Position numbers and translations under genes: made by a program
NCBI RefSeq assembly: GCF_029871235.1
Contig: NZ_SSOM01000079.1
Span: 38,420 to 102,419 of the forward strand
Direction: 5' to 3'
Length of the DNA stretch: 64,000 bases
DNA from: Pseudomonas sp. BN411
Lineage (GTDB): Bacteria > Pseudomonadota > Gammaproteobacteria > Pseudomonadales > Pseudomonadaceae
Notes under the pieces: generated by a model
What the model was told of the DNA's origin: nothing
Database searches by the model: none
What the model saw: the letters and a program-made list of their open reading frames with translations, nothing else
Shown: piece by piece, positions 6,687 through 41,124 of the stretch
Position numbering within the stretch: position 1 is the first letter of the stretch
How the letters are laid out: each line of letters starts with the position of its first letter

Positions 6687-8609
6687 ATGAACAACAAGAA
6701 TAATCACAACCTCAACTTGCGCAGGTGCCTGCTCGCCTCGGCCATTGCTGCCGGATTGGGCGTGCCGGCCGTGGTGCAGGCCTTCGAGGTCAACACCGGG
6801 AATCCGGACTGGTCGGTTCGCTTCGACAATACCGTGAAGTACAACTACGGCGTTCGCACCGAGAGCGCGGACAAGCGCATGCTGGCCACGCCGAACAACA
6901 ACGACGGCGACTACAACTTCCGTCGTTCCGGCACCAACATCACCAACCGCGTCGACCTGTTGACTGAGCTGGACGTGATCCACCAGGGCAACAAGGGCTT
7001 CCGCGTCAGTGCCGCCAGCTGGTACGACAAGGCCTACGACAACACCGGCTCCAACTCGAACCCGTTCGTCAACGGCAACGAGGCCTTCTCCCGCATTGCC
7101 GGCCAGCCCGGCACCAACAATGCGGTTCTGGGCAGTCCGCACCTTTCCAACTACGCCCAGCGCTATTACAGCGGCCCGTCCGGCGAAATCCTCGACGCCT
7201 TCGTGTTCTACAGCACTGAAGTTGGCGAAGAGTCGATGTTCAGCGTCAAGGCCGGCCAGCACAACGTGTACTGGGGCGAGACCATCCTGAACCCGGTGCA
7301 TGGCATCAGCTACGGCCAGTCCGGCCTGGACCTGGCCAAGCTCGCCGCCGCGCCGGGCACCGAGGCCAAGGAACTGTTCGTTCCGCGTAACCAGGTTTCC
7401 GCGTCCTTCACCATCAACCCCGAGCTGACCGTTGCCGCCCAGTACTTCCTGGACTGGGACGAAGCACGCCTGCCCGAGGCCGGCACCTACTACGGCAGCT
7501 CCGACCTGGTGGGCACCGGCGCCCAGTCCTTCATCCTCGGCCACACCGGCGGTCCGGGCCTGGCGGGTCCGAACGGCACCCTCACCAGCATCGCCCGTGG
7601 CCACGACATCACCCCGGACAAGCGCGGTGACTGGGGCCTGATGCTGAAGTGGTCGCCGGAGTGGCTGGACGGCACCCTTGGCGCCTACTACCGCAATACT
7701 GCGGAAATCCTGCCGCAGGCGGTGCTCGATGGTACCGGGCTGACGGCGCGCGGCGCGGGCGGTCCCATCGCCAACGTGCGCAACTCCATCAGCACCACCA
7801 ACTACAAGTTCGCCTATGGCGACGACATCGACATCTTCGGCCTGAGCCTGTCGAAGGACGTCGGTGGCGTCAGCGTGGCCAGTGACCTGAACGTCCGCCA
7901 CAACATGCCCCTGGCGAGCATCCCGGCCATCGTCAGCGCCTCCGGCCGCGGCGGCCTGGCGGGGGGGCTCGGCCTGCTGCCGCCCCGCGTTCCGGGTACC
8001 GGCGTGGTCACCGATATTCCGAGCAGCGGCGACAGCATGAGCGCCACCGGCGACACGCTGCACTGGACCGTCAACGGCCTGATGACCATCGGCGACACGC
8101 CGCTGTTCGACTCGGCGTCTCTGCTGGGCGAGCTCTACTACAGCAACCTGCTGAAGCTCGATAGCAAGAACGAGGCCCTCTACAAGGGCAAGGACACCTA
8201 CCGCGGCATCGACAAGCCGACCCGCGACAACTGGGGCGTCGCGGTGAACTTCACCCCCACCTGGTACCAGGTGTTCCCGGGCGTGGACCTGTCCACCCCG
8301 ATGTCCGTCAACGTTGGTCTGGACGGCGTATCTCCGGTCCAAGGCGGCGGCGCCGAAGACACCGGCACCTACTCGGTCGGCATCGGCGCGGCCATCTACA
8401 ACCAGTACTTCGTGGACCTGAAGTACGTGGACTCTTTCGGCGATGCCGATAAGTGTGAAAACGGAGCCACCGACGGCTCGACACCTAACGCATTGGACGC
8501 CACGCAGCGCTACACCTGCTTTGCCGGGGGTTACTCCTCCTTCTCCGGCGGCGGGGCTACCACGGAAGACCGTGGCGCGGTGTACCTGACTTTGAAGACC
8601 ACCTTCTGA
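6687..8609 (+). CDS. DUF1302 family outer-membrane beta-barrel protein
   Basis: 640 residues. A signal peptide (about residues 1-34, basic start, hydrophobic core LLASAIAAGLGVPAVVQA, then FEVNTG) exports it. The mature chain alternates polar and hydrophobic residues, is rich in Gly, Asn and Tyr, and ends in aromatic Phe (LTLKTTF), the C-terminal signature of BAM-inserted barrels. The ATG at 6687 has a GAAGCGGAG ribosome site; an upstream in-frame ATG at 6594 would put charged sequence before the signal peptide. It is first in a same-strand cluster with DUF1329, Ycf48-like and RND genes, a combination that recurs in proteobacteria. Role unknown; an outer-membrane channel for a hydrophobic compound is plausible. 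Confidence 0.85.
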   Translation: MNNKNNHNLNLRRCLLASAIAAGLGVPAVVQAFEVNTGNPDWSVRFDNTVKYNYGVRTESADKRMLATPNNNDGDYNFRRSGTNITNRVDLLTELDVIHQGNKGFRVSAASWYDKAYDNTGSNSNPFVNGNEAFSRIAGQPGTNNAVLGSPHLSNYAQRYYSGPSGEILDAFVFYSTEVGEESMFSVKAGQHNVYWGETILNPVHGISYGQSGLDLAKLAAAPGTEAKELFVPRNQVSASFTINPELTVAAQYFLDWDEARLPEAGTYYGSSDLVGTGAQSFILGHTGGPGLAGPNGTLTSIARGHDITPDKRGDWGLMLKWSPEWLDGTLGAYYRNTAEILPQAVLDGTGLTARGAGGPIANVRNSISTTNYKFAYGDDIDIFGLSLSKDVGGVSVASDLNVRHNMPLASIPAIVSASGRGGLAGGLGLLPPRVPGTGVVTDIPSSGDSMSATGDTLHWTVNGLMTIGDTPLFDSASLLGELYYSNLLKLDSKNEALYKGKDTYRGIDKPTRDNWGVAVNFTPTWYQVFPGVDLSTPMSVNVGLDGVSPVQGGGAEDTGTYSVGIGAAIYNQYFVDLKYVDSFGDADKCENGATDGSTPNALDATQRYTCFAGGYSSFSGGGATTEDRGAVYLTLKTTF

Positions 8610-33267: not shown

Positions 33268-33923
33268 TTCACGATCTCCAGCCATCGTCCTTATGTTCGG
33301 GCTTGATAAGCGACGCTACAAACGCCAGACGTCCCGTTCTCTCAACGTCTGTGCCGGAACTCCCTCGGGTCGGGTGCCGGAGATCGTTTTCCGTTCGGTA
33401 TGGCGACACTCAAAGCATAGCCATGGATTAGCCATTATTGAGTGGGCGCGACTGTTGGTGCGCGGGCGGCGACGGGCTGTCGTCGGGACGGAGATCAGTT
33501 GCCGGATACCCTCACGGCGTAGTCTCGCGCAAACCACCTGTTGCCTCGACCGCGTCTGCGGAGGCTGGCGGCAACTGATGCGGAGCAGCGGCGGGGCGCT
33601 CAAGCTCGGGCTCTTCCGGCTTCGTATGGGCGAGCGGCTGAAACGAAAAAAACTGCCCGGCCGTTAGATTGAATATTCACTAGGGTTATTTGCTAATTCC
33701 TGATTCGAATATCCATTGCGCCGGTAAAGCTGTTGTCGAGGCCTTTATGTTCGCGATAGCGCGAAGCTCGCAGTCATCACGAACGGAGGCGCTGTCATGG
33801 ATGAGGAAATCGCAGGCCGGACGTAACTGGCCGACGCTGTCTCGCCATCTTGTTCGCCGGATTCGCGCTCCTAGAATCGGCCCCCATCCGGTTACTCATT
33901 CCATCCTTTGAGGGAGCTCCACC
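33268..33923. other. Long intergenic region between the GGDEF-EAL gene and the Met-rich gene
   Basis: 656 bp (including 18 bp of an alternative start for the GGDEF-EAL gene). The two genes are divergent. Short frames here lack ribosome sites and GC3 bias. An AT-rich stretch near 33670-33720 holds GAATATTC and TTCGAATATCC half-palindromes. The distal part holds a plausible promoter for the Met-rich gene. Confidence 0.5.
33850..33877 (+). promoter_or_regulatory. Putative sigma-70 promoter of the Met-rich gene
   Basis: TTGTTC (33850-33855), 16-base spacer, TAGAAT (33872-33877). It ends 46 bp before the ATG. The fit is fair, not strong. Confidence 0.45.
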
Positions 33924-34421
33924 ATGATGAATGCCATGCAGATGCCGATGTCCGCCAATACCATGATGCCGATGATGGGCATGCCCATGATGATGGCCAC
34001 CATGCAGTGCGACATGCAGGACGACGGCATGATGTGCAAGATGATGCCGGCCATGGGCATGGACATGGCGATGTTCCGCAACAGTGCGGACATGATGGCG
34101 ATGATGATGAGCTGCGGCATGCCGATGATGATGCACTGCGGCAACATGTCGATGATGTGCATGTCCCAGTCCGGCATGGCGATGATGCCGATGATGAACA
34201 TGATGCCGATGATGGGTATGGGCATGCCCATGCCGTCCATGAAGTGCATGATGGAGTGCTCCATGCAGGGCGACGCCATGATGTGCAAGATGATGCCGAT
34301 GCAGGGCATGAACATGGAGATGTTCAAGAACTGCTGCGCCCTGATGATGAAAATGATGGAGTGCGGCATGCCGATGATGATGAGCTGCAACGGCATGCCG
34401 ATGATGTGCTGCACCTGCTGA
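33924..34421 (+). CDS. Extremely Met/Cys-rich protein, tandemly duplicated
   Basis: 165 residues of which, by hand count, 71 are Met and 15 are Cys, over half the chain. Residues 27-80 and 110-163 align as a duplication: DGMMCKMMPAMGMDMAMF with DAMMCKMMPMQGMNMEMF, and CGMPMMMHCGN with CGMPMMMSCNG. The preceding Met-Pro-rich tracts also repeat. Cys positions are largely conserved, with extra Cys in the second copy (NCC, MCCTC end). No signal peptide or membrane helix. A GAGGGAG ribosome site precedes the ATG, and a strong terminator follows 13 bases after the stop, so it is a real single-gene unit. No family recognised. Soft-metal (Cu(I), Ag(I)) binding or an oxidant sink are possible roles; both are inference. 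Confidence 0.85.
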   Translation: MMNAMQMPMSANTMMPMMGMPMMMATMQCDMQDDGMMCKMMPAMGMDMAMFRNSADMMAMMMSCGMPMMMHCGNMSMMCMSQSGMAMMPMMNMMPMMGMGMPMPSMKCMMECSMQGDAMMCKMMPMQGMNMEMFKNCCALMMKMMECGMPMMMSCNGMPMMCCTC

Positions 34422-34434
34422 TCGGCAGGACGTG

Positions 34435-34469
34435 AAAAAGCCCGGCCGGGAAACCCGCCGGGCTTTTTT
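34435..34469 (+). terminator. Rho-independent terminator of the Met-rich gene
   Basis: AAAAAGCCCGGC (34435-34446) pairs with GCCGGGCTTTTT (34457-34468), and the loop itself can extend the stem (CGGG/CCCG region). It ends in six T. A and T runs on both sides make it usable from either strand. Confidence 0.93.
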
Positions 34470-34530
34470 GTGCTCGCTCGAACGTTCTGGCACGGCGCCC
34501 GGGTCACACTCGTGGCTCGGCTGGGCTCCG

Positions 34531-34663: not shown

Positions 34664-35290
34664 TCAGTCGAGCCGCTCGGCGTAGGTGGTGACCAGATAC
34701 GCCACCGCTTCGCTGTTGGAGGGGTTGCGGTAGGCGTGGGGTTGGTCGGCGTAGAACAGGATCGAATCGCCGGTGGCGAGCAGGAAGCGTTCCTCGTTCA
34801 CGCTAATTTCCAGCACGCCCTGAGCGACCACGAGGTTTTCCTGGGTGCCGGGGGCATGGCCGGTAGAGTCCTCGGTGGCCAGGCCTGCCAGGCGCAGTTC
34901 ATAGAATTCCACCTGGCGCGAGCAATCGAAGGGGAACAGCGCGCGGCTGACGAAACTGCCGTCGCTGTTCACCAGGCGCTTGCTCTGGCGCGCCGGCAAT
35001 ACCGCGACACCGTCGAAGGCACGGTCATCAAGAAAGGCCGCCACCGAGACCTTGAGGCCCTGAGCAATCTTGCACAGCACCTTGATGGACGGAACACTGC
35101 GCCCGGACTCGATCTGCGCCAGCATGGCGCGGCTCACGCCGGAAGCGCGGGCAAGGCCGTCCAGCGACAGGTTGCGCTTGCTGCGCAGGCGCAACAGATT
35201 GCTGGCAACGCGCTGGCTGATCGGGTCGTCTACGCCGGTTGCCGGCAGCAACACCTGCTCATGGGCGTCCAGAGGTAGTGACTGGCCCAT
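34664..35290 (-). CDS. XRE family regulator with C-terminal cupin
   Basis: 208 residues. The N-terminal HTH is VASNLLRLRSKRNLSLDGLARASGVSRAMLAQIESGRSVPSIKVLCKIAQGL (about residues 28-80), followed by a cupin sensor with SGHAPGTQENLVVAQGVLEISV and GDSILFYADQPHAYRNPSN. HTH-cupin regulators of this shape sense small metabolites and often autoregulate. It starts 3 bp after a 53-residue gene and is probably co-transcribed with it. Confidence 0.9.
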   Translation of the reverse strand: MGQSLPLDAHEQVLLPATGVDDPISQRVASNLLRLRSKRNLSLDGLARASGVSRAMLAQIESGRSVPSIKVLCKIAQGLKVSVAAFLDDRAFDGVAVLPARQSKRLVNSDGSFVSRALFPFDCSRQVEFYELRLAGLATEDSTGHAPGTQENLVVAQGVLEISVNEERFLLATGDSILFYADQPHAYRNPSNSEAVAYLVTTYAERLD

Positions 35291-35293
35291 GAT

Positions 35294-35455
35294 TCACGCC
35301 TCACGAATGCCAGTGTTCCGCTGCTGCTGGGTGAGCTGGAAAGCCCCGAATCCCGCCCGGCAGGCGTACATCGTCCACATCAGCTCGGCCATGCGGCGTG
35401 CCTGACGGCGCGTGCGATAGCGGGCGAGGTCAATGACGTTGTCGGTACGGTCCAT
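35294..35455 (-). CDS. Small basic protein upstream of the XRE regulator
   Basis: 53 residues starting MDRTDNVIDLARYRTRRQAR. It is rich in Arg, with a short aromatic stretch (MAELMWTMYACRAGFGAFQL) that could form one amphipathic helix. AGGAG lies 8 bases before the ATG, and the stop is 3 bp from the next gene's start, strong signs of a real coupled gene despite its size. Family not recognised. Confidence 0.72.
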   Translation of the reverse strand: MDRTDNVIDLARYRTRRQARRMAELMWTMYACRAGFGAFQLTQQQRNTGIREA

Positions 35456-41017: not shown

Positions 41018-41083
41018 ATGACTAAATCCCCTTGGTTGTCCGGCCCCGCGATTATTACCGCCATTCCAGCAGTGGCGGGTTAG
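41018..41083 (+). CDS. Leader peptide of ilvA, Ile/Ala-rich
   Basis: 21 codons: the peptide begins MTKSPWLSGP and ends AIITAIPAVAG, followed by TAG at 41081. The cluster of Ile (ATT ATT ... ATT), Thr and Val codons lies where a stalled ribosome would cover the first hairpin arm. There is no Shine-Dalgarno; the promoter places the start at or next to the mRNA 5' end, so it may be leaderless. The length and codon content fit attenuation leader peptides for branched-chain amino acid genes. Too short to be supported by homology here. Confidence 0.6.
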   Translation: MTKSPWLSGPAIITAIPAVAG

Positions 41084-41121
41084 CCGACGACCAAACAGAA
41101 ACCCGCCCTCGAGGCGGGTTT
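41058..41121 (+). promoter_or_regulatory. Transcription attenuator of ilvA (competing hairpins)
   Basis: Three mutually exclusive pairings. Segment 1:2 is CCGCCA (41058-41063) with TGGCGG (41073-41078). Segment 2:3 is GGCGGGTT (41074-41081) with AACCCGCC (41100-41107). Segment 3:4, the terminator, is AAACCCGCC (41099-41107) with GGCGGGTTT (41113-41121). Segment 1 lies within the Ile-rich end of the leader peptide. Ribosome stalling at scarce isoleucine codons would free segment 2 to pair with 3 and prevent termination. Confidence 0.68.
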
Positions 41122-41124
41122 TTT
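41099..41124 (+). terminator. Rho-independent terminator of the ilvA leader
   Basis: 9-bp stem with CTCGA loop followed by six T (41119-41124). It lies 44 bp before the ilvA ATG, the place expected for an attenuator. Confidence 0.9.

Follow-up and report, generated by a model that had tools for sequence, protein, structure and literature searches.

The gene at 33924 to 34421 of the window (the whole stretch of DNA that was analysed, 64,000 nucleotides from Pseudomonas sp. BN411) encodes a protein in which methionine and cysteine together account for 52% of the residues. It is a genuine gene under purifying selection, and it makes up one third of a conserved three-gene cassette whose other members are an XRE-cupin regulator and a microprotein. 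The link between this Met-rich gene and the regulator is the strongest fact shown by the analysis, and we infer that the former is controlled by the latter. As to function, the best candidate, although one that may well turn out to be wrong, is that the Met-rich protein serves as a cytosolic reserve or sink of sulfur amino acids under a sulfur-sensing regulator. The features on which the following sections draw are these:

33850 to 33877, plus strand: predicted promoter of the Met-rich gene (-35 box TTGTTC at 33850 to 33855, 16-base spacer, -10 box TAGAAT at 33872 to 33877)
33910 to 33916, plus strand: ribosome-binding site GAGGGAG, recognised by its sequence, 7 bases 5' of the ATG
33924 to 34421, plus strand: Met/Cys-rich protein gene, 165 amino acids, 71 Met and 15 Cys
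33987 to 34163, plus strand: domain copy 1, residues 22-80 (HMM E 9.6e-16; AlphaFold strands 23-31 and 36-42, helix 48-63, strands 68-72 and 75-80)
34239 to 34415, plus strand: domain copy 2, residues 106-164 (HMM E 5.7e-24; AlphaFold strands 107-115 and 118-125, helix 131-146, strands 151-155 and 158-164)
34434 to 34471, plus strand: intrinsic terminator hairpin and T run (minimum free energy of 34422 to 34480, -32.2 kcal/mol; z -3.7 against shuffles)
34664 to 35290, minus strand: XRE-cupin regulator, 208 amino acids, convergent with and directly downstream of the Met-rich gene (Pfam HTH_3 and Cupin_2; PDB 1y9q, E 1.9e-24)
35294 to 35455, minus strand: microprotein of 53 amino acids (MDRTDNVIDLARYRTRRQARR...), 3 bases upstream of the regulator and in the same direction

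The methionine-rich gene and its protein family

Methionine makes up 43.0% (71/165) and cysteine 9.1% (15/165) of the protein, in agreement with the hand count given in an earlier note on this DNA, and the mean Met content of the 176 window ORFs of at least 100 amino acids is 2.4%. The only other of these ORFs above 9% is the runner-up (14.3%), which lies antisense to the Met-rich gene. A long antisense ORF on the minus strand (33795 to 34493), which is His-rich because ATG read backwards is a His codon, constitutes a trap for gene finders. That the sense strand is the coding one is settled by the dN/dS ratio among relatives, a measurement proposed by the earlier note, the median of which is 0.28 in the Met-rich frame vs. 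0.96 in the antisense frame (78 pairs from 13 sequences chosen out of the 67 loci with the Pseudomonas start motif, within L001-L087, L001 being the window's own gene). The earlier note had also called the gene real on account of its own promoter, ribosome site and terminator, and these signals hold up: TAGAAT is present upstream in 68 of 68 relatives' sequences and, when the 65 sequences left after merging identical ones are aligned on it, TCTTG is conserved in at least 80% of them, which gives the pattern TCTTG...TAGAATC. A chance or repeat-driven ORF, at a locus whose true product is a His-rich protein from the other strand, could find support in the overlapping antisense ORFs, in the antisense CDS annotated in four plasmid records and in the low complexity of the DNA. 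This explanation is ruled out, to the point that we give it practically no credence, by the dN/dS values and by the conservation of the domain across phyla, and the promoter, ribosome site and terminator are all found on the sense strand.

The protein is internally duplicated. Alignment of one half against the other scores 228, a value reached by none of 2000 shuffles (mean 80.8, sd 9.9, maximum 122), and a domain HMM built from relatives matches residues 22-80 and 106-164, the best of 1000 shuffled versions of the protein reaching only -59 bits. The duplication proposed by the earlier note is thus upheld, but not its bounds (residues 1-80 and 81-165), the copies defined by the HMM being slightly narrower. 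In a sample of 179 proteins the domain was found in 177, of which 35 carry two domains and the remainder a single one, some of these being fragments (the antisense protein P0002 was excluded from family counts); the single-domain forms in other lineages support the duplication. The N-terminal tails of the Met-rich proteins are low-complexity stretches of Met, Pro and Gly that vary in length and still contain 43% Met, which suggests that the Met content itself is selected. Residues 1-38 of the window protein contain neither Lys nor Arg, and therefore no classical n-region or signal peptide is apparent by inspection.

AlphaFold2 (30-row alignment) models the protein with a mean pLDDT of 79.4 and a pTM of 0.69 as two ββαββ units with pLDDT of about 90, residues 1-19 and 94-101 being disordered. 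For the single-domain relative P0034 the same order of elements is obtained with a core of about 80, in a model of low overall confidence (mean pLDDT 59.1, pTM 0.36). The prediction for each copy is thus a β-β-α-β-β fold in which Met fills the majority of the hydrophobic positions, preceded by a disordered tail of Met, Pro and Gly. Searches of the predicted domain with Foldseek against the PDB and viral models, and with VIA-align, gave no match above background. Whatever its function, the protein is a test case for whether methionine can form the core of a soluble domain.

Relatives were collected in three overlapping protein searches (E <= 1e-3), which yielded 56, 302 and 327 of them, the best 120 of about 7990 scored candidates being listed for the last two. 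The family is present in Pseudomonas, Massilia, Alphaproteobacteria (also on plasmids), Myxococcota and one acidobacterial MAG, and named holders include Pseudomonas tohonis, Sorangium, Polyangium, Pyxidicoccus, Anaeromyxobacter, Kofleriaceae, Devosia, Tianweitania and a Pyrinomonadaceae MAG (the lineage of four holders was checked). Many further Pseudomonas, Massilia and Myxococcus holders come from a genome scan (80 of 133 loci kept), and the plasmid carriers are Rhizobium, Shinella, Mesorhizobium and Microvirga. The earlier note recognised no family, and indeed the window protein is matched by none of the Pfam or NCBIfam models, nor does the family profile hit any PDB sequence at E <= 10. 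It had also made its claim depend on homologues with conserved Met and Cys; such homologues were found, and the claim stands. In 212 family domains (matches spanning 46 model positions or fewer left out) Met ranges from 15 to 49%, with a median of 36% and a 5th percentile of 22%, Cys from 5 to 17%, and Met and Cys together have a median of 46%. Among the 161 of 170 domain matches that are 54-62 residues long, Cys is kept at columns 18 (158/161), 35 (143/161) and 53 (146/161), i.e., in 89-98%, and Met occupies most hydrophobic columns, where it is replaced mainly by Leu, Ile, Val and Phe. The third protein search reached domains with 15% Met, yet no ordinary Met-poor family that could represent a low-Met ancestor. 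Residues 41-75 of the relative P0095, a helix-turn-CGG stretch, give a weak match to Pfam GATase_3 (E 5e-4); this lies below the cut-off, and the relation was taken as chance.

No paper on this family was identifiable among those listed in searches of the open-licence PMC literature. Since neither the libraries nor the papers searched gave a match, the family and the cassette are considered new, although what the protein does biochemically may yet prove to be a variation on something familiar.

The cassette and its genomic context

The regulator and the microprotein were overlooked by the earlier note, and they constitute the strongest functional lead. The regulator combines an N-terminal HTH domain (HTH_3, 47.2 bits for a cut-off of 23) with a C-terminal cupin (Cupin_2, 42.0 bits for a cut-off of 27.2), and its closest PDB relative is 1y9q. 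In PMC7901475, the 1y9q structure is reported with D-methionine in the cupin pocket, and XRE-cupin proteins are described as local, specialised metabolic regulators. The presence of this D-methionine may be incidental. The microprotein, for which Pfam gave no match above cut-off, could, as a guess, modulate the regulator. The myxobacterial and alphaproteobacterial microproteins have a hydrophobic C-terminus rich in V, P and W.

The regulator and the Met-rich gene occur in the identical 37 of the 298 genomes of the family sample. Their starts are within 1.3 kb of each other in 31 of these genomes, 2.7-10.3 kb apart in four and on separate contigs in two, the regulator being retained even at 2.7-10 kb from the Met-rich gene (4/37). 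In a sample of the genus, 7 of 18 genomes have both the Met-rich gene and an orthologue of the regulator (>=82% identity), and the other 11 have neither. By tblastn, 71 of the 80 named loci, taken with up to 7 kb of flanking DNA, match the regulator, and these include loci from both Myxococcota and Pseudomonas. Microprotein homologues convergent to the Met-rich gene are present in 73 of the 80 (E <= 0.05; eight of the 80 loci supplied the HMM seeds, and a single match, at 0.049, is borderline). A regulator is missing from nine loci, which belong to Polyangium (three), Massilia (two), a Myxococcaceae MAG (one) and Pseudomonas (three, of which two stop no more than 0.5 kb from the Met-rich gene). 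In the three Polyangium loci (L009, L012 and L018) the microprotein stands beside the Met-rich gene (at about 7220-7400, minus strand) and there is no XRE-cupin gene within 7 kb. All three parts are found in the distant proteobacterial loci L157 and L158, the microprotein having been identified there by eye.

The association was also examined from the side of the regulator. In a phylum-level sample of 398 genomes the regulator (E <= 1e-35) is present in 11, of which eight contain the Met-rich gene; genomes G538, G607 and G609 (loci L164, L162 and L163) have a sister XRE-cupin clade that is 57-60% identical and have no Met-rich gene. A ribB-like gene, named by eye, adjoins the sister regulator in L162 and L163. 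When plasmids were searched with the regulator alone, 55 records were obtained, all below 60% identity, and 12 loci chosen for variety were read. Nine of these (regulator 44-55% identical across the 12) hold both the Met-rich gene and the microprotein (Rhizobium four, Shinella two, Mesorhizobium one, Microvirga two), and the three from Azospirillum (L172, L173 and L174; regulator 44-46% identical) hold neither. A putative sulfate exporter gene lies nearby in L172 and L173, and L174 has msrB and a transsulfuration-type PLP enzyme. The plasmid search with the Met-rich protein itself under a low-complexity filter gave no matches; the filter hides most of the query and reduces the score of the protein against its own gene from 274 to 53 bits.

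The gene appears to be largely unannotated or annotated on the wrong strand, as its composition defeats gene finders. Among the protein-database hits, a match with at least 90% identity and at least 80% length coverage exists for one of 67 copies from Pseudomonas-type loci, and the P. tohonis entry (P0013) is a 90-residue piece that starts inside the Met-rich protein. In the seven annotated plasmid cassettes, the CDS that covers the Met-rich gene is antisense to it in four (L165, L168, L169 and L171) and on the right strand in three (L166, L167 and L170), that of L167 being shortened.

The genes flanking the cassette in the window, which encode a GGDEF/EAL protein, Kup and PPK2, are not sulfur genes. 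Further along the window, 41048 to 41122 (plus strand) matches Rfam P9, a Pseudomonas sRNA (77.9 bits). The neighbours of the cassette vary from lineage to lineage, but sulfur genes accompany it repeatedly elsewhere. In P. chlororaphis (L036) MetQ-MetN-MetI-like genes end 0.3 kb upstream of the Met-rich gene, and among the 80 loci, in which each cluster of sulfur genes was named from one representative, SsuA-like genes occur in 18, SsuC-like in nine, SsuD-like in seven and MetQ-like in seven. A cystine-transporter-like operon is found about 2-4 kb upstream of the Met-rich gene in L157, and SsuA-like, 3-mercaptopyruvate sulfurtransferase-like, YedE-like, DmoA-like and MetQ genes within 8 kb in L158, several of the names in these two loci resting on scores below curated cut-offs. 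According to the existing annotation, sulfur genes lie no more than 6 kb away in four of the nine plasmid cassettes (L175 and L176 have no annotation). Shinella L171 has ssuD, cysE, msuE and genes for a sulfonate transporter and a sulfur transferase, Shinella L166 has a sulfur transferase gene, and Rhizobium L165 and L169 have msuE, an LLM monooxygenase and ABC transporters, to which L169 adds tauA. At least 5 of 37 genomes have SsuA or MetQ no more than 6 kb from the Met-rich gene, for an expectation of at most 0.99 (P ~0.003; near sites picked by eye among the matches listed, expectations from full counts). This enrichment is supportive and not decisive, because it takes no account of shared ancestry and because some of the loci had already been seen when the two families were chosen.

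An operator common to the promoter of the Met-rich gene and that of the microprotein and regulator was sought by eye and with regular expressions, and no shared motif was found. In the upstream regions of the Pseudomonas Met-rich genes, only the -35 and -10 boxes and a block just 5' of them stand out. The block, immediately 5' of the -35 box, reads CG-N-CatCTTG and is preceded in many species by GCTGcT. It may be a site for a regulator.

Functional readings of the cassette

A regulator of the type that responds to metabolites, sulfur genes as neighbours in several lineages and a protein of which half the residues contain sulfur together favour the reserve or sink reading. A more specific form of it, a possibility that we hold with rather less confidence, is a dedicated reserve, i.e., a folded protein with Met at nearly all core positions that would be made and reclaimed under a methionine-sensing XRE-cupin regulator and a microprotein, encoded by a three-gene cassette that at least two phyla carry, chromosomally as well as on plasmids, and that gene finders often overlook or read on the wrong strand. 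In the proposed mechanism the cupin domain would sense methionine or a related sulfur metabolite, and the regulator would act on the promoter of the Met-rich gene, switching it on when sulfur amino acids are plentiful. The Met-rich protein would then accumulate during this excess and, once the supply falls, would be degraded to return Met and Cys. However, several observations speak against a reserve. The flanks of the window's own cassette lack a sulfur gene, such genes are evident in only four of the nine plasmid cassettes and their enrichment is modest (>=5/37). The regulator type is not always tied to the Met-rich gene, as the sister clade and the three Azospirillum plasmids show, and the three Polyangium loci lack a regulator within 7 kb. 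In addition, a SCO-family gene lies near the L170 cassette, and simple storage would require neither well-kept cysteines nor an ordered fold.

Among the rival readings, buffering of soft metals in the cytosol, with thioether and thiolate ligands holding Cu(I) or Ag(I), is kept alive by the well-kept cysteines and the ordered domain, and it is unlikely but deserves to be taken seriously. Cu(I) is classically bound through Met and Cys, the three Cys columns are retained in 158, 143 and 146 of 161 domains, AlphaFold predicts an ordered domain, and in the Microvirga plasmid L170, one of the nine plasmid cassettes, a gene of the SCO family, whose members are often copper-related, lies 3.6 kb from the Met-rich gene. 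Against it, none of the 39 genomes with the Met-rich gene shows a copper P-type ATPase on the same contig at a distance of up to 25 kb (nearest 47 kb; contig ends could hide some copper genes), and the linked regulator is of the XRE-cupin type and not of the CueR, CsoR or CopRS types. An intracellular oxidant sink, in which Met residues would be spent on hypochlorite or other oxidants and regenerated by Msr enzymes as in the periplasmic MrpX and BcrX, is less probable still. It remains alive through the very high Met content, and Met-rich sinks with such a role do exist according to PMC4623255 and PMC8315932. Yet MsrA is within 25 kb on the same contig in none of the 39 genomes (nearest 82 kb), the examined window flanks contain no Msr gene, as the earlier note had said of the immediate surroundings, and the annotated ones no ECF sigma or anti-sigma gene. 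The lack of basic residues in the first 38 positions argues against a classical signal peptide, MXKDX repeats are not seen by eye and the regulator is of a different kind. The genomic context thus gives no support to the two functions put forward by the earlier note, Cu(I)/Ag(I) buffer and oxidant sink.

A toxin-antitoxin-like or regulatory element, in which the regulator and the microprotein would control or bind the Met-rich protein and its composition would be incidental, we consider improbable. Pairs of XRE genes with small proteins are known (XRE-DUF397), and the hydrophobic ends of the myxobacterial and alphaproteobacterial microproteins fit such a role. The retention of Met across phyla, with the domain median and 5th percentile given above, and in the low-complexity tails indicates instead that the composition is not incidental.

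The reserve reading, if true, would make the Met-rich protein a protein counterpart of cyanophycin. We know of no earlier bacterial protein recognised as a sulfur-amino-acid reserve. If instead a metal or oxidant sink is the true function, the Met-rich protein would represent a new protein family for the job, with an unusual regulator. Because the cassette presents one regulator, one predicted target promoter and one candidate class of ligand, the question is directly testable. In either case a conserved family, apparently largely unannotated or annotated on the wrong strand, is present in common soil Pseudomonas (P. protegens, P. chlororaphis and the P. fluorescens group), in rhizobia and in myxobacteria.

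Comparison with known systems

MrpX of Azospira suillum and BcrX of Brucella resemble the protein described here in being small, Met-rich and bacterial. They are periplasmic oxidant scavengers that, as described in PMC4623255 and PMC8315932, are linked to hypochlorite and accompanied by methionine sulfoxide reductase genes and by an ECF sigma factor with its anti-sigma factor. The Met-rich protein differs from them in its XRE-cupin partner, in the lack of a detected link to Msr and of an evident signal peptide, in its predicted ββαββ fold and in its 9% Cys. Dense ligands for soft metals are also shared with the bacterial copper storage protein Csp, which in its cytosolic form stores Cu(I), and with Met-rich copper proteins such as CopM. 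However, Csp is a four-helix bundle lined with cysteines, whereas the Met-rich protein is modelled as two ββαββ domains (pLDDT about 90) and has no copper ATPase within 25 kb. The Met-rich 2S albumins of plants are sulfur-rich seed storage proteins, and the likeness to them, which exists only under the reserve reading, is one of role, that of a sulfur-amino-acid reserve; the protein described here is bacterial, predicted to be cytosolic and different in fold. The linked regulator, with its HTH_3 and Cupin_2 domains and 1y9q of V. cholerae as the closest solved relative, is of the same build as the XRE-cupin regulators PA0535, PsdR, PauR and ErfA. In the accessible part of PMC7901475 no Met-rich target of these regulators is named, whereas the clade described here is accompanied by a microprotein and a Met-rich gene.
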